From NCBI GenBank assembly GCA_001829155.1, contig MIAO01000096.1:1-43083 (forward strand): a DNA stretch of 43,083 nt, in the 5' to 3' direction. The stretch comes from Spirochaetes bacterium GWB1_36_13. Its GTDB lineage: Bacteria > Spirochaetota > GWB1-36-13. Under the pieces are notes generated by a model. It did no database searches and was not told where the DNA came from. It saw only the letters and a list, made by a program, of their open reading frames with translations. The translations under genes and the position numbers were made by a program. Below, one piece after another: positions 8,825 through 20,032 of the stretch. Each line of letters begins with the position of its first letter. The first letter of the stretch is position 1.

Positions 8825-8920
8825 TCAGGCTGTCGATTATTATTTAAATTAACTCGGATTCTAATAAACTTACAAATATCAATGATAACAAGGTATAGTT
8901 TTCAATAATCGACAGCCTGA
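8825..8920. mobile_element. MITE-like element, copy 1 (96 bp)
   Basis: It is bounded by perfect 17-bp terminal inverted repeats, TCAGGCTGTCGATTATT at 8825-8841 and its complement at 8904-8920. It has no coding capacity. The left 34 bases nearly match copy 3 (TATTATTTAAATTAACTCGGA), and the right end shares TTTCAATAATCGACAGCCTGA with copies 2 and 3. The flanks (TTAG and GTAT) do not form a clean duplication, so this is probably the oldest copy or one that has rearranged. Confidence 0.8.
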
Positions 8921-13835: not shown

Positions 13836-14951
13836 ATGGAAAACCTGACCGAAATTTTAGTGGTAGATGATCTGATTGAAAACATCAAGGTAATCGGAAA
13901 TATCTTGAAAATGAATGATTATAAACTATCTATTGCCATGAATGGAAAGGAAGCGTTGTCTTATCTGGAAGACCATTTCCCTGATTTGATTCTTTTAGAT
14001 GTCACTATGCCGGAATTAAATGGTTTTACGGTTTGCGAAATGATAAAAAAAAATGAGAAGCTGAAAAATATTCCCGTTATTTTTCTGACGGCAAAAGTTG
14101 AATCAGAAGATATTTTAAGGGGGTTTCAGGCGGGAGGTGTGGATTATATTACCAAGCCTTTCAATCATGATGAGCTTTTATCGAGGGTCAAGACTCATAT
14201 CGAGCTTAAAAAATCAAAGGATCTGATTCTGGAGCAGAATGAGAAACTGGAAAAAATGAATCAGGAAAAAAATAAATTTTTTTCAATTATCGCGCATGAT
14301 ATCAGGAATCCTGTAACAGCTATTTTTGGTTTTGCGGATCTTTTAAAAAATAAAATCAATGAGATGAGTGATCAAGAAAGAAAAAAAAGTATTGATATTC
14401 TTTATCAGTCTTCTGTACAATTGGCTGATCTTATCGAGCACCTTTTAGACTGGGTGAAAATGCAGATCAATAAAACTGATTTTAAGCCTGTTTTATTTTT
14501 CCTGAAAAAAGAAGTTTTAAAAGTTTTTCAGTTTCAGCAGTTGCAGGCAGATATGAAAAAAATCAAGCTGTATGAAAATATTTCTGAAAATACGGAGATA
14601 AAAGCCGACTTAAATATGTTTCGTTCTATTTTGATCAATCTGGTTTCCAATGCACTGAAATTTACTCCTGAAAACGGAGAGGTAAAGGTAGAGGCGTTTT
14701 CTGATGAAAAAGAATTGAGAGTATCGGTGATGGATAATGGAATAGGGATGGAGCCTGAAATCATCAATAAACTTTTTCAACTCGGTTCCCAGCATACCAC
14801 CTGGGGAACAGCGGATGAAAAAGGAACCGGGCTCGGACTTTTATTATGCAGGGAATTTGCTGAAAAACATGGAGGAAAAATCGAAGTGAAAAGCGAGAAA
14901 GGGAAAGGGAGCACCTTTAGTCTGGTACTCCCTATTGTAGCCAAAAAATAA
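13836..14951 (+). CDS. Response regulator-histidine kinase (REC-HisKA-HATPase)
   Basis: The 371-residue protein has an N-terminal receiver (Asp55 in LLDVTMPELNGF, Lys107 in YITKPF), a short coiled coil, a HisKA box with His154 in FFSIIAHDIRNPVTAIFGF, and an HATPase domain (NLVSNALKFTP, DNGIGM, GTGLGLLLCREF). It has no sensor domain, so its input is presumably phosphate from a partner. The hybrid kinase ending one base upstream is the obvious donor, making a multi-step relay likely. The LLDWVKMQIN segment and kinase core resemble those of the membrane kinase at 20083, so the two cores may be paralogous. No DNA-binding output is encoded here. Confidence 0.92.
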   Translation: MENLTEILVVDDLIENIKVIGNILKMNDYKLSIAMNGKEALSYLEDHFPDLILLDVTMPELNGFTVCEMIKKNEKLKNIPVIFLTAKVESEDILRGFQAGGVDYITKPFNHDELLSRVKTHIELKKSKDLILEQNEKLEKMNQEKNKFFSIIAHDIRNPVTAIFGFADLLKNKINEMSDQERKKSIDILYQSSVQLADLIEHLLDWVKMQINKTDFKPVLFFLKKEVLKVFQFQQLQADMKKIKLYENISENTEIKADLNMFRSILINLVSNALKFTPENGEVKVEAFSDEKELRVSVMDNGIGMEPEIINKLFQLGSQHTTWGTADEKGTGLGLLLCREFAEKHGGKIEVKSEKGKGSTFSLVLPIVAKK

Positions 14952-14954
14952 ATT

Positions 14955-15370
14955 TGAAGCACGGCATACGGCATCATAAAAAAGACCTGCGCTTGCTATG
15001 AGAAATGCGTTATTCCCCACAGAATCGACGGTTTCAATATTTCCTGCATACATAGCGGCAATAAGCGGAGTTCGATACCATGAGTATGCGCCCATCGGTC
15101 TTGTGCTGTAGAGATTAATGTTAATGCCTTTTGCATTCAGAAGCATTTTTACTATTTCAATATCAACCTGTTTATTTCCTGCAGCTTCTACTAAAACAGT
15201 ATCCTCATGTTTGACATTAACATCATGTCCTTGTTTGATAAGAAGGGCTACTTTTGCCGCATCATTTTTCCAAACAGCTTCGATGAGTGGGGCAACGGCA
15301 CCGCTCAACAAGTTTTGACTGAAAAAAGAAAAGAAATGATTAGAAAGACTTTTATAAAATATTTTTTCAT
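14955..15370 (-). pseudogene. Decayed secreted ankyrin-repeat protein gene
   Basis: An ATG at 15370 with GAGGA 5 bases upstream starts a signal-peptide-like stretch (MKKYFIKVFLIISFLFS) that runs into TGA after 21 codons. The adjoining frame, open through the same region, carries ankyrin repeats (PLIEAVWKNDAAKVALLIKQGHDVNVKHEDTVLVEAA; YRTPLIAAMYAGNIETVDSVGNNAFLIASAG). Adding one base to the six-T run near 15321-15326 would join signal peptide and repeats. The third repeat also looks internally shortened (NIETV joined to DSVGN), and the gene loses ankyrin character about where the REC-kinase gene ends. The ORF-track version starting at TTG 15311 is the leftover open frame. A sequencing error in the T-run could explain the frameshift but not the truncation. 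Confidence 0.7.
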
Positions 15371-15392
15371 GATTTCCTCGATATGAGATTAT

Positions 15393-15615
15393 TCAGGCTG
15401 TCGATTATTATTTATACTAAACTAATTATAAAATGACCGCCTGTCATTCCGGTTTTTGTTTGCAAAAGATCGGAATCTGTTATTTAAAATACTTATTGTC
15501 AATAGATTCCCGCCTTCGCGGGAATGACAAAGAAAATATAAAAACGGTCAAAATAAATTTGTTTTAGTATAACAAGATGGTTGATGGAAATAATTTTCAA
15601 CAATCGACAGCCTGA
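15393..15615. mobile_element. MITE-like element, copy 2 (223 bp)
   Basis: The left end is TCAGGCTGTCGATTATT at 15393-15409. The right end is its complement with one change (AACAATCGACAGCCTGA). The element is flanked on both sides by TTAT (15389-15392 and 15616-15619), a direct repeat and therefore a target-site duplication rather than an extension of the inverted ends. The interior carries two other repeat fragments: TGTCATTCCGG...CGGAATCTG and the hairpin at 15506-15525. It encodes no transposase. It interrupts the 3' end of the small accessory gene at 15620-15766. Confidence 0.85.
15506..15525. repeat. Hairpin repeat nested inside MITE copy 2
   Basis: ATTCCCGC-CTTC-GCGGGAAT is a perfect 8-bp stem followed by GACAAAG. 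A degenerate relative is at 1727-1744 and a differently sequenced analogue at 8757-8783. Confidence 0.7.
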
Positions 15616-15766
15616 TTATTTCTTCTTCCGCCCATTCTTTATCCCTTTCCGTCATGGGCTCGTCTCCTTTGTTCCAGTTTTTAAAACCGTAGGCAAGACA
15701 TCCCAGTCCCGAAAAAATAGTGAGTAAATATACTATTCCAATCGAAAAGTCTGTGAAACCAAGCAT
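15548..15766 (-). CDS. Orphan symporter small accessory protein with MITE-derived C-terminus
   Basis: The first 50 residues (MLGFTDFSIGIVYLLTIFSGLGCLAYGFKNWNKGDE...WAEEE) match the small single-span accessory proteins encoded directly before sodium:solute symporters: MLG start, one membrane helix, and a Y-G-x-x-N-W-N-K-G-D motif. The ribosome-binding site GGAGG is strong. After residue 51 the frame enters MITE copy 2 at its TTAT junction, so the last ~21 residues (RLSIVENYF...) and the stop are supplied by the element. No symporter follows on the minus strand; a broken ankyrin gene lies there instead. The gene is probably a remnant, although the protein could still be made. Confidence 0.65.
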   Translation of the reverse strand: MLGFTDFSIGIVYLLTIFSGLGCLAYGFKNWNKGDEPMTERDKEWAEEEIIRLSIVENYFHQPSCYTKTNLF

Positions 15767-15887: not shown

Positions 15888-17318
15888 ATGGAAGAAAAAA
15901 AGAAACAGGAAAATCCGTTGGTAAAAAAATATAAATCTTCATGGGAATTGATTGAAGAAGAAGAAAAAAAAATTGTTGATCTTTTTGGAGAATCTTATAT
16001 CGATTTTATATCTTATTCAAAAACTGAAAGAAAAGCAGTTGAATTCAGCCTGAAACTGGCTCAGTCCAAAGGCTTTCAAGATATCAATACGAAAAAAACT
16101 CTGAAAGCGGGAGATAAGGTTTATTTCATAAACCGGGCTAAAAATATTTTATTGGCTGTGATTGGAAAAGAACCTTTAGAAAAAGGATTTAATCTTTTAG
16201 CGGCGCATGTGGATGCTCCCAGACTGGACTTGAAACCCAATCCGCTTTATGAAGATTCGGGAATGGCTTTATTAAAGACCCATTATTACGGCGGAATCAA
16301 AAAATATCAGTGGGCAGCTATTCCTCTGGCTCTTTATGGAGTGGTGATTAATCAAAAAGGCGAAAAGATTGATATTAATATCGGGGATGATCCGAATGAC
16401 CCAATTTTTTATATCAGCGACCTTCTCATTCATCTGGCTAAGGATCAGATGAAAAAATCTCTGGATGAGGGTATTTCCGGGGAGGATTTAAATGTTCTTT
16501 GCGGTTCGATCCCTCTGGTTGGAAAAGAAGATGAGAAGAAACCGGAAAATCCGATTAAAGAAAATATTTTAAATATTTTAAACCAGAAATACGGCATTAC
16601 GGAAGAAGAGCTGGTGGGAAGCGAGTTTGAAATTGTTCCGGCAGGGCTTGCCCGTTATGTCGGATTTGACAAGAGTCTGATCGCAGGATACGGACATGAC
16701 GACAGATCCTGTTCTTTTGCTTCTCTTCGTGCTGTTTTGGATTTAAAAGAAGTACCAGACCGGACATCTTTAGTGCTTTTAGCCGATAAAGAAGAGATAG
16801 GAAGCTATGGAAACACCGGTCTGGAAAGCGATTTTCTTTCTTATGCCGTTCTTGAGCTCATGGATAAAAAAGAAAACAGGGCGGATATTCTTTCTTTAAA
16901 AAGAGTTTTGAAAAATTCAATGGCGATTTCAGCGGATGTTGGGGCGGCAGTTGATCCAAACTATCCGGGAGTCGAAGATAAAAAAAATGCCTGCTATCTT
17001 TCCAAGGGCGTTATTTTAAAAAAATATACGGGTTCCCGTGGAAAATCTGGGGCAAGCGATGCAAATGCTGAATTTATCAGCATGATGAGAAATCTTTTTA
17101 CTTCCAATGAAATCAACTGGCAGACCGGCGAACTGGGAAAAGTGGATCAGGGCGGCGGAGGCACAGTGGCTTTTCTTCTGGCTAAAATGAACATGGATGT
17201 ACTGGATGTAGGACTACCGGTTCTTTCCATGCACGCTCCGACTGAAGTGATCGCAAAAATAGACTTGTATATGGCTTATAAAGCTTATAGAGTCTTTTTG
17301 GAAAAAGCCGGTTGTTAA
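15888..17318 (+). CDS. M18-family aminopeptidase
   Basis: This 476-residue cytosolic zinc aminopeptidase belongs to the bacterial aminopeptidase-I group. Metal-ligand blocks in order: LLAAHVDAPRLDLKP (first His and Asp), GYGHDDRSCSFASL (bridging Asp), LADKEEIGSYGNTG (catalytic Glu pair), ISADVGAAVDPNYP, and LSMHAPTEVIAKIDLY (last His). KSGASDANAEF and DQGGGGTVAFLLAKM are also family blocks. It removes N-terminal residues, often acidic or hydrophobic, in peptide turnover. The ribosome-binding site is strong (AGGGAGAAAGAGG). It stands alone upstream of the PP2C gene (24-base gap), and a functional link to signalling is not evident. Confidence 0.93.
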   Translation: MEEKKKQENPLVKKYKSSWELIEEEEKKIVDLFGESYIDFISYSKTERKAVEFSLKLAQSKGFQDINTKKTLKAGDKVYFINRAKNILLAVIGKEPLEKGFNLLAAHVDAPRLDLKPNPLYEDSGMALLKTHYYGGIKKYQWAAIPLALYGVVINQKGEKIDINIGDDPNDPIFYISDLLIHLAKDQMKKSLDEGISGEDLNVLCGSIPLVGKEDEKKPENPIKENILNILNQKYGITEEELVGSEFEIVPAGLARYVGFDKSLIAGYGHDDRSCSFASLRAVLDLKEVPDRTSLVLLADKEEIGSYGNTGLESDFLSYAVLELMDKKENRADILSLKRVLKNSMAISADVGAAVDPNYPGVEDKKNACYLSKGVILKKYTGSRGKSGASDANAEFISMMRNLFTSNEINWQTGELGKVDQGGGGTVAFLLAKMNMDVLDVGLPVLSMHAPTEVIAKIDLYMAYKAYRVFLEKAGC

Positions 17319-17342: not shown

Positions 17343-19832
17343 ATGAATATCAAAAGCCTGAAAGCAAAGATTTCATTTATTGGATTTCTCTTTTATTCTT
17401 TTATATTTTTATTTTTCAGCCTGACTTTTTATTACCTTCTTTCTCAGAGTATTAAAAAAAATATTTCAGACACCCAGTTTCAGATGATTTCCCAAATTGC
17501 GTTTGATATTGAAAATAATCTTCAAATCAGGATATCAGCTTTAGAAAGGGTTTCAAAAATTTTTTCAAAAAAAAATATTAAAAATCAGAAAGATTTAAAT
17601 TTATTTTTACTTGAAAGAGAAGGAACCGGGACACTTTTTAATGGGCTTTTCATAGCTGATTTAAAAGGAAGACTTCTGGTTCAGGCTCATTTCAGCAATC
17701 CGCTAGATTTAGAATTAATTTTTGAAGAAAAATTTGTTTCTGAAATTCATAAGACTCAAAAAACTGTAATTTCCACTCCTTTTATTGAAAAAAATTCAAA
17801 CATGCCTTCTATTATTATTGGCACTCCGATTTTTAACTCTCAAAAAGAGATTGCAGGAATTATTGGCGGCGCTATGGATCTTTTTCAGAATGAACTATTT
17901 CAGGAAATGAACAATATTCATATTGGAAAAAAAGGCTATATGTATCTTTTTGATAAAGAGAAAAGGCTGATAGTCCACTGGGATAAAAAGAGGCTTCTGA
18001 CAAAGGTTCCAGACGGAGCCAATAAAGGTATAGATATGGCGGTAAATGGCTTTGAGGGAACAGTTGAAAATCAAAACTCTTATGGATTAAAAGCATTGAC
18101 TACCTTTAAGAAATTGAAGATGAAAGACTGGATTTTAGGGAGCAATTACCCTATTGAAGAAGCTTATGAGTCTGTTGAAAAATTGAAAGAAATTTTTTAT
18201 CTGATTTTTTTAAGTTCCCTTCTTTTTTTTCTAAGTTATTATCTGCTGATTCGAAAATACCTTTTTCCTCTTTCCAATCTGACCGATCATTTTAAAAAAC
18301 TTCCTGAAACAAACTGGGAACAACGGTATTTTCAATACTCAAAAAAAGATGAAATCGGCTATCTTTCAGAGGCTTTCAATCAGATGATTGATAAACTTCA
18401 AACTTCGGAAGAAGAAATCAGAAAACTTTCCAATGCGGTGAACCAGTCTCCTGTCTCAATTGTGGTAACAGATATCAATGGAAAAATCACTTTTGTCAAC
18501 CCCAGTTTTGAAGATATTACAGGATATCCGATTGAGGAAGCGATGGGAAAAAATCCGAATATTCTAAAATCGGGTAAACATGACGATGAATTTTATCAGG
18601 AAATGTGGAATACGATTTCTAATGGAAAGACATGGCAGGGAGAAATCTGCAATAAGAAAAAAGACGAGTCTTTGTATTGGGAAGATGCGACCATTTCTCC
18701 AGTCAAAAATAATGAAGGAGAAATTACCCATTATATTGGCGTGAAAAGAGATATCAGTAAAGAAAAGGAAACGGAAGAAAAACTGCGCATTTATACATTG
18801 ACGATTGAAAAAGAACTGACTGAAAAAAGAAACGCTTTGTTGAACGCTCAGAAAATTCAAAGAAATTTAAATCCTCAGCAGATTCCTGTTTTTGAGAAAT
18901 TCAATATATCAGCTTTTTATCTTCCCTCTGAGGAACTGGGAGGGGATTTTTTTGATGTCCGTGTGATAGGCGAAAAACTGGTCATTATTCTGGGGGACTG
19001 TGAAGGGCATGGGCTGGAAGCCGCTTTAGACAGTGTGCTGACGAAGGCTATCTGCGACCGGTATTACAGTCTTTTTGAAATTGCCCGCACTGATATTTTT
19101 CTTCAGGCAGTCAATAATGATATTCTGGAATATTTTAAGGGAGAAAAATTTTTAACTCTTTTTGCGGCTGTCATTGATTTGGAGACAAACGAGTTGTTTT
19201 ATTCCAGCGCCAATGCTGAAATTCCTTTTCTGATACGGAAAAACAAAGCTTTTTTATTGGAAAGACCGGAGGGATTTCATATTGGTTTTGAAGCAAATAT
19301 GAATTTTGAAAGAAAATCTATCCGTTTGATGGAAAATGATAAACTGGCTTTTTATTCCGATTCTGTGCGGGAAATGATGTCGAAAGACCTTGTTCCTTTC
19401 GGTCTCGAAAATCTTGAGAATATTTTCAGCCGTTTTATCCATTCTCTTCAGACTGATTTAGCTCTTTTTCTATCAGAAGTGAAGAGTTTTTATGGACGAT
19501 TCCCTTTAGAGGATGACACCACTCTTGTTTTTATTGAGTATAAAGGGGGAAGTCTCTGGAAAAAAGAGGTTGAAAGTCAAAAAGAAATCAATGAGCTGAT
19601 CCATCATATTTTTGAATTGTTCTATCAATATAATTTTCCTGAGCAGAAAAAAACTCCTTTGCTGGAGTTTCTGAAGTTAAATCTAAAAACAGGAGTGAAA
19701 ATTAATTTTTCTATTCATTTTAAAAAATTATGGATTAAAATAGAATCTTATGAAAAAAAGTTTTCTGTTTTTGAAATTGAAAATCAATCTAAAAAAACAA
19801 ATTTTGAATTAACCAATTCTTTTCATTTTTAA
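17343..19832 (+). CDS. Membrane sensor PP2C/SpoIIE-type phosphatase (dCache-HAMP-PAS-PP2C)
   Basis: The 829-residue protein starts with a transmembrane helix (residues ~12-33). A periplasmic dCache-like sensor follows (DLFQNELFQEMNNIHIGKKGYMYLFDKEKRLIVHW), then a second helix (~280-300), HAMP, and a PAS domain (AVNQSPVSIVVTDINGKITFVNPSFEDITGY). The SpoIIE/RsbU-type phosphatase has its metal aspartates in SEELGGDFFDV, LGDCEGHGLEAAL and DDTTLVFIEY. Such proteins dephosphorylate anti-sigma-antagonist proteins in response to a signal, but no STAS or RsbW-type gene is nearby. About 100 C-terminal residues after the phosphatase have no recognised domain and no GHKL ATP-binding motifs that I can see. 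AGGAG lies 6 bases before the start. Confidence 0.9.
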   Translation: MNIKSLKAKISFIGFLFYSFIFLFFSLTFYYLLSQSIKKNISDTQFQMISQIAFDIENNLQIRISALERVSKIFSKKNIKNQKDLNLFLLEREGTGTLFNGLFIADLKGRLLVQAHFSNPLDLELIFEEKFVSEIHKTQKTVISTPFIEKNSNMPSIIIGTPIFNSQKEIAGIIGGAMDLFQNELFQEMNNIHIGKKGYMYLFDKEKRLIVHWDKKRLLTKVPDGANKGIDMAVNGFEGTVENQNSYGLKALTTFKKLKMKDWILGSNYPIEEAYESVEKLKEIFYLIFLSSLLFFLSYYLLIRKYLFPLSNLTDHFKKLPETNWEQRYFQYSKKDEIGYLSEAFNQMIDKLQTSEEEIRKLSNAVNQSPVSIVVTDINGKITFVNPSFEDITGYPIEEAMGKNPNILKSGKHDDEFYQEMWNTISNGKTWQGEICNKKKDESLYWEDATISPVKNNEGEITHYIGVKRDISKEKETEEKLRIYTLTIEKELTEKRNALLNAQKIQRNLNPQQIPVFEKFNISAFYLPSEELGGDFFDVRVIGEKLVIILGDCEGHGLEAALDSVLTKAICDRYYSLFEIARTDIFLQAVNNDILEYFKGEKFLTLFAAVIDLETNELFYSSANAEIPFLIRKNKAFLLERPEGFHIGFEANMNFERKSIRLMENDKLAFYSDSVREMMSKDLVPFGLENLENIFSRFIHSLQTDLALFLSEVKSFYGRFPLEDDTTLVFIEYKGGSLWKKEVESQKEINELIHHIFELFYQYNFPEQKKTPLLEFLKLNLKTGVKINFSIHFKKLWIKIESYEKKFSVFEIENQSKKTNFELTNSFHF

Positions 19833-19862: not shown

Positions 19863-20032
19863 TCAGGCTGTCGATTATTATTGAAATTAACTCGGACACT
19901 GAGCGGAGTCGAGGTGTCACTTCGGCTGTGCTCAGTGACCGTACGGCTACGATAATAACCAAAACAAAGCTATTAAAGATTGAATCAGTAAAGAGAATTG
20001 ATGGAAATAGCTTTCAATAATCGACAGCCTGA
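19863..20032. mobile_element. MITE-like element, copy 3 (170 bp)
   Basis: It has perfect 17-bp terminal inverted repeats (TCAGGCTGTCGATTATT at the left, complement at 20016-20032) and a TTAT target-site duplication (19859-19862 and 20033-20036). The left 34 bases match copy 1, and the right end shares TTGATGGAAATA with copy 2. The centre holds a separate imperfect palindrome at 19897-19937. It has no coding capacity and lies between the PP2C gene and a histidine kinase gene. Confidence 0.87.
19897..19937. repeat. Imperfect palindrome nested inside MITE copy 3
   Basis: CACTGAGCGGAGTCGAGGTG is followed by TCACTTCGGCTGTGCTCAGTG. The arms are complementary except for four positions. It resembles the CACTGAGCGGAGTCGAAGTG-type dispersed repeats common in intergenic regions of many bacteria. 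Confidence 0.65.

Follow-up and report, generated by a model that had tools for sequence, protein, structure and literature searches.

The window, a 43,083-nucleotide stretch of contig MIAO01000096.1 from Spirochaetes bacterium GWB1_36_13, carries on its minus strand a 72-residue open reading frame (ORF) that starts as the small accessory protein of a sodium-coupled symporter and ends inside a MITE. We read the accessory gene, with about even confidence, as a recent relic of an accessory–symporter operon that has a MITE at the breakpoint of a deletion, the loss having most likely come about through the element. The ORF, its parts and its divergent neighbour are as follows:

15548–15766, minus strand: accessory-protein relic with a MITE-encoded tail, a 72-aa ORF recognised by its match to NF045580 and by a Shine–Dalgarno (SD) sequence, GGAGG, ahead of the ATG.
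15620–15766, minus strand: native accessory codons, residues 1–49 (MLGFTD...NWNKGDE...EWAEEE).
15548–15616, minus strand: residues 51 (in part) to 72 and the stop codon, encoded by the element (right arm and core).
15888–17318, plus strand: M18 aminopeptidase, divergent neighbour of the accessory gene (NF002600, 674 bits).

The coordinates and strand of the 72-aa ORF were verified. In an NCBIfam profile search it scores 48.1 bits against NF045580 (symporter small accessory protein), for which the curated cut-off is 35; the match comprises residues 1–33 and covers profile positions 1–33 in full, and the family assignment spans the first 49 residues. The earlier note held that the protein keeps its membrane helix and NWNKGDE motif, and both are indeed there: the membrane stretch is intact (hydropathy 2.0 over 19 residues, starting at residue 7), as is the YG...NWNKGDE motif, and the native part retains 7/7 of the invariant residues of the local accessory alignment. 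The family score of the relic equals that of the intact paralog in the same genome (48.9 versus 46.3 bits), which indicates that the loss is recent. The C-terminus is where the proteins part. The paralog closes with EEEKKIEQEFE and a relative in genome G021 with EEEKVIEKELE, each followed directly by the stop, so that both extend ~8 residues (KKIEQEFE, KVIEKELE) beyond the EEE block; these residues are missing from the window gene, which diverges immediately after EEE. Its tail begins after residue 49–50, and the last 21–22 residues and the stop are supplied by the element, in agreement with the earlier claim that the insertion rewrites the end of the protein. Members of the family are about 53–66 aa long and have an acidic end and a stop just before the symporter; the window ORF, at 72 aa, departs from this pattern. 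A literature search on the NF045580 accessory family found no paper, and a scan of the genome collection with a single accessory protein gave no confirmed relatives.

The family was surveyed in a phylum sample, where 27 of 296 genomes contain NF045580 above the cut-off, and the gene surroundings were read for 32 family members in the phylum, the intact paralog and the window gene included. A symporter gene homologous to the one on contig C106 of the same genome lies directly downstream in 30 of the 32, usually overlapping the accessory gene or separated from it by ≤20 nt. One of these adjacent cases, the first of two in genome G123, has a symporter fragment only; at this locus (L113; G123:C112, 1477–2250) accessory–symporter pairs stand in tandem, the first symporter is reduced to an N-terminal fragment, a further symporter loss in this family, and no MITE was seen. 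The exceptions are the window gene and a gene of genome G200. The latter (L128; G200:C1:13532-13627) is a divergent accessory gene of 54 aa, scoring 42 bits and having no adjacent symporter, which makes it a second orphan in the phylum; the symporters of G200 sit on other contigs.

That no symporter follows the accessory gene, as had been noted before, holds for the whole window, in which neither SSF homology nor a symporter remnant was found. The genome has three SSF genes, one on C106 and two on C63. The C106 symporter is accompanied by its own intact accessory gene of 53 aa (the paralog), and the two C63 proteins are only distantly related (21–30% over partial length), so no widowed partner is seen and the idea of a widowed symporter elsewhere in the genome was rejected. 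The search for a symporter gene lacking its accessory partner, proposed in the earlier note, thus yielded none of the accessory-linked kind in a genome that is 93% complete. The window gene is a true orphan. Given its length, its end and its lack of an adjacent symporter, we file it as a relic of NF045580 and not as a working member. An intact short gene with no symporter beside it had been named as the finding that would speak against the earlier account; G200 offers one, a weak case from a single genome with no sign of functioning alone. In G001, the only genome of the same order, the aminopeptidase is the sole gene in common here; its neighbours differ and the genome has no accessory gene, and this was set aside as an orthologous locus. 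Scanning the collection with the aminopeptidase returned distant genomes only, mainly Clostridia.

The sequence in which the accessory gene ends comprises the following features:

15393–15615, unstranded: composite MITE of 223 bp with ends TCAGGCTGTCGATT and AATCGACAGCCTGA, present in about 60 genome copies.
15413–15571, unstranded: inner repeat TATACTAAAC...GTTTTAGTATA nested in the MITE, with 40 copies scored among 243 genome candidates.
15389–15392, unstranded: TTAT at the left flank, corresponding to TA + N of the target and not to a 4-bp duplication (flank comparison of MITE copies).
15616–15619, unstranded: TTAT at the right flank, corresponding to N + TA of the target and likewise not a 4-bp duplication (same comparison).

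The element is short, occurs in many copies, has terminal inverted repeats (TIRs) and lacks coding capacity for a transposase, as expected of a MITE. Searched with ≤1 mismatch, the 3.04-Mb genome yields 126 matches to the element's inverted ends (TCAGGCTGTCGATT), compared with 0 for the reversed control, which is far above chance. Two-ended copies measure 96–376 bp, and most carry two unlike arms. In the copy between accessory gene and ankyrin gene, 20 nt from one arm and ~45 nt from the other enclose a different repeat (15413–15571) that is much commoner than the MITE and has inverted ends of its own; this copy is thus a composite, a property absent from the earlier note. Copies of the inner repeat (at least 40 genome-wide) often contain the palindrome ATTCCCGCGAAGGCGGGAAT, and many contigs terminate in this repeat. 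A copy on contig C43 matches the left half of the element at 98% identity, which points to the element being a young copy; since the flanks on C43 differ, the composite's left junction also exists elsewhere in the genome. Part of the core is nearest to a copy on C82 (99%). A derivation of the element as a chimera of the C43 and C82 copies was rejected because C82 lacks this right arm.

Two further MITE copies lie in the window, at 8825–8920 and 19863–20032. The first (96 bp) is nested in the end of another repeat (GTTTAG/GTATAG) and shows the pre-insertion site with a one-base duplication. The second (170 bp) begins 31 bp past the stop of an 829-aa ORF (17343–19832) and has TTAT at both flanks. 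In the first 100 TIR places of the listing, no facing TIR pair was spaced between ~400 bp and a few kb, and seven further genomes of the phylum gave no hit to the MITE, in a search run without a positive control.

The TTAT on either side had been treated in the earlier note as a duplicated target, and this part of its account does not stand. For the 29 two-ended MITE copies, observed flank pairs were compared with shuffled pairs: 4/29 copies have identical flanking 4-mers, no significant excess over shuffled pairs (2.2, P = 0.16), while the single base adjoining each MITE end agrees in 20/29 against 10.6 expected (P = 0.0001). The dinucleotide TA is located one base off the left end in 25/29 copies and one base off the right end in 18/29, and in three nested copies (L061, L066 and the one at 8825) the host repeat is restored best by removing one base. 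These observations suggest that the target of the MITE resembles TA-N-TA and that about one base is duplicated, in which case TTAT on both sides would be mostly a by-product of the target. The shuffled-pair test together with the restoration of the nested sites rules out TTAT as a target-site duplication; a TA duplication as in IS630/RUP is unsupported, the TA being one base away from the ends and the nested copies being restored with one base removed. Matching flanks are consequently no proof of a clean insertion. Since duplications of one and of four bases differ by 3 nt, conclusions about the reading frame are unaffected.

On the other side of the element the minus strand leads into an ankyrin gene:

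14844–15311, minus strand: ankyrin-repeat ORF with a TTG start, probably a gene remnant, with Ank homology to about 15020 (Pfam Ank 5.7e-08, Ank_2 7.7e-08).
15305–15370, minus strand: likely true ankyrin start, with the SD sequence GAGG at 15376–15379, the ATG at 15370 and a signal-peptide-like stretch MKKYFIKVFLIISFLFSVKTC followed by TGA, as read from the sequence.

This SD sequence, 13 nt past the element, and its ATG were absent from the earlier note. The signal-peptide-like frame (MKKYFIKVFLIISFLFSVKTC) ends in TGA precisely where the ankyrin ORF opens in a different frame, and the ankyrin gene therefore looks frameshifted or broken; the last third of the ankyrin ORF is without an ankyrin match. 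Excision of the element with one TTAT leaves the accessory frame open and in phase with the ankyrin ORF, a claim of the earlier note that we reproduced. Such an open in-phase run is expected in 3–10% of shuffled sequences and is thus near chance, and it carries little weight given the separate ankyrin start, which lies in another frame.

Our preferred reading accounts for these observations as follows. The accessory gene would ancestrally have headed an accessory–symporter operon, from which a deletion would have taken the last ~8 accessory codons, the stop and the entire symporter gene, fusing the accessory gene to the region ahead of the broken ankyrin gene. The MITE copy exactly at the breakpoint would then supply 21–22 codons and a stop by chance, and we infer that the 72-aa product is without function. 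The likeliest route may be recombination between two MITE copies, one at or just after the accessory end and the other ahead of the ankyrin gene, which would leave a single MITE copy with flanks from two sites; a transposition-linked deletion would be the other form of loss through the element. Both edges of the lost segment are at the element, ~8 codons short of the expected stop on one side and 13 nt before the ankyrin SD on the other, and this favours a loss together with or through it. Three points tell against this reading: a T adjoins the element at either end, an agreement seen in 20/29 copies that slightly favours clean insertion; there is no second copy or intact locus to display the parents of a recombination; and G001 has nothing but the aminopeptidase in common at the locus and lacks the accessory gene. 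The earlier note had offered two alternatives, that stop and symporter were lost before the insertion or removed with it; this was the right question, and either order may apply, as the TTAT behind the idea of a clean insertion is no duplication.

The symporter and the accessory end could instead have been lost first, with the MITE transposing cleanly into an existing junction, a history that we regard as possible and clearly less probable. It would explain the single shared flanking base (T/T), which is like that of most copies, and the empty site, which reads open and in phase into the ankyrin ORF so that nothing need be added. However, the insertion would have had to hit within ~10–13 nt of an independent breakpoint, the open frame is expected in 3–10% of random sequences, and the ankyrin start is in another frame. 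The junction might also be an artefact, the contig having been joined via a multi-copy repeat while the real downstream symporter is on another contig or missing. The assembly is a draft of 151 contigs, and many contig ends lie ≤250 bp from a copy of the element or its core (for example C38, C42, C59, C65 and C67, and further C72, C104, C111 and C137), which implies that the element breaks the assembly. Yet exact matches to the other fetched copies run to 81 bp at most, and to no more than 23 bp in the right arm past 15580, so longer words or paired reads would resolve the element; moreover, no contig has a symporter of the accessory-linked type missing its accessory gene, in a genome 93% complete. 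We consider a misassembly unlikely.

It is still more doubtful that the orphan protein works, for instance with the C106 symporter or alone, its new tail being harmless. The undecayed native part (7/7 invariant residues), the good SD and the example of G200, where an accessory gene also lacks an adjacent symporter, would be compatible with this, but the C106 symporter already has an accessory gene, the acidic end is gone, and 30 of 32 family genes stand next to a symporter. Least probable of all, and hardly to be expected, is that the 72-residue hybrid, freed from its symporter, is expressed and either has an independent role or acts with the distant C106 symporter.

The locus is a further clear example of a MITE forming the end of a bacterial coding frame, here at an operon-deletion breakpoint, where the orphan accessory gene left behind allows the missing symporter to be called. 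The survey also documents, as a by-product, a near-strict pairing of the NF045580 accessory family with a symporter in one phylum, and the flank analysis cautions against taking identical tetranucleotides at the flanks of a TA-targeting element as proof of a target-site duplication.

Compared with the NF045580 family, window residues 1–49 have the membrane helix, the C/YG/NW motif and the start of the acidic tail, whereas the adjacent symporter is absent and the last ~8 residues and stop are replaced by the MITE. Protein ends of MITE origin are known from other bacteria. In Coxiella burnetii Dugway, QMITE2 lies at the 3' end of enhC and encodes 33 C-terminal residues of EnhC, and several genes have 3' ends that are overlapped by QMITEs (PMC5896051). 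There too the MITE provides C-terminal residues and the stop falls at or just past the element, but the rest of enhC is intact and a comparison between strains is possible, while here the downstream operon gene is lost as well. Pneumococcal RUP elements insert at TA-containing targets and are thought to be mobilised by IS630-Spn1 (PMC2229807). Like the window MITE they are short non-autonomous repeats with TA-containing targets that also insert within other mobile repeats; they differ in end sequence, and for the MITE described here the duplication appears to be about one base and no transposase source was identified. In-frame fusions with host ORFs are formed by RU-3 and by the Neisseria Correia/NEMIS elements (PMC2229807), whose open frames are joined to host ORFs as in the window. 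Those are other elements with recurrent fusions, in contrast to the single fusion described here, to which the operon deletion at its breakpoint is the added feature.
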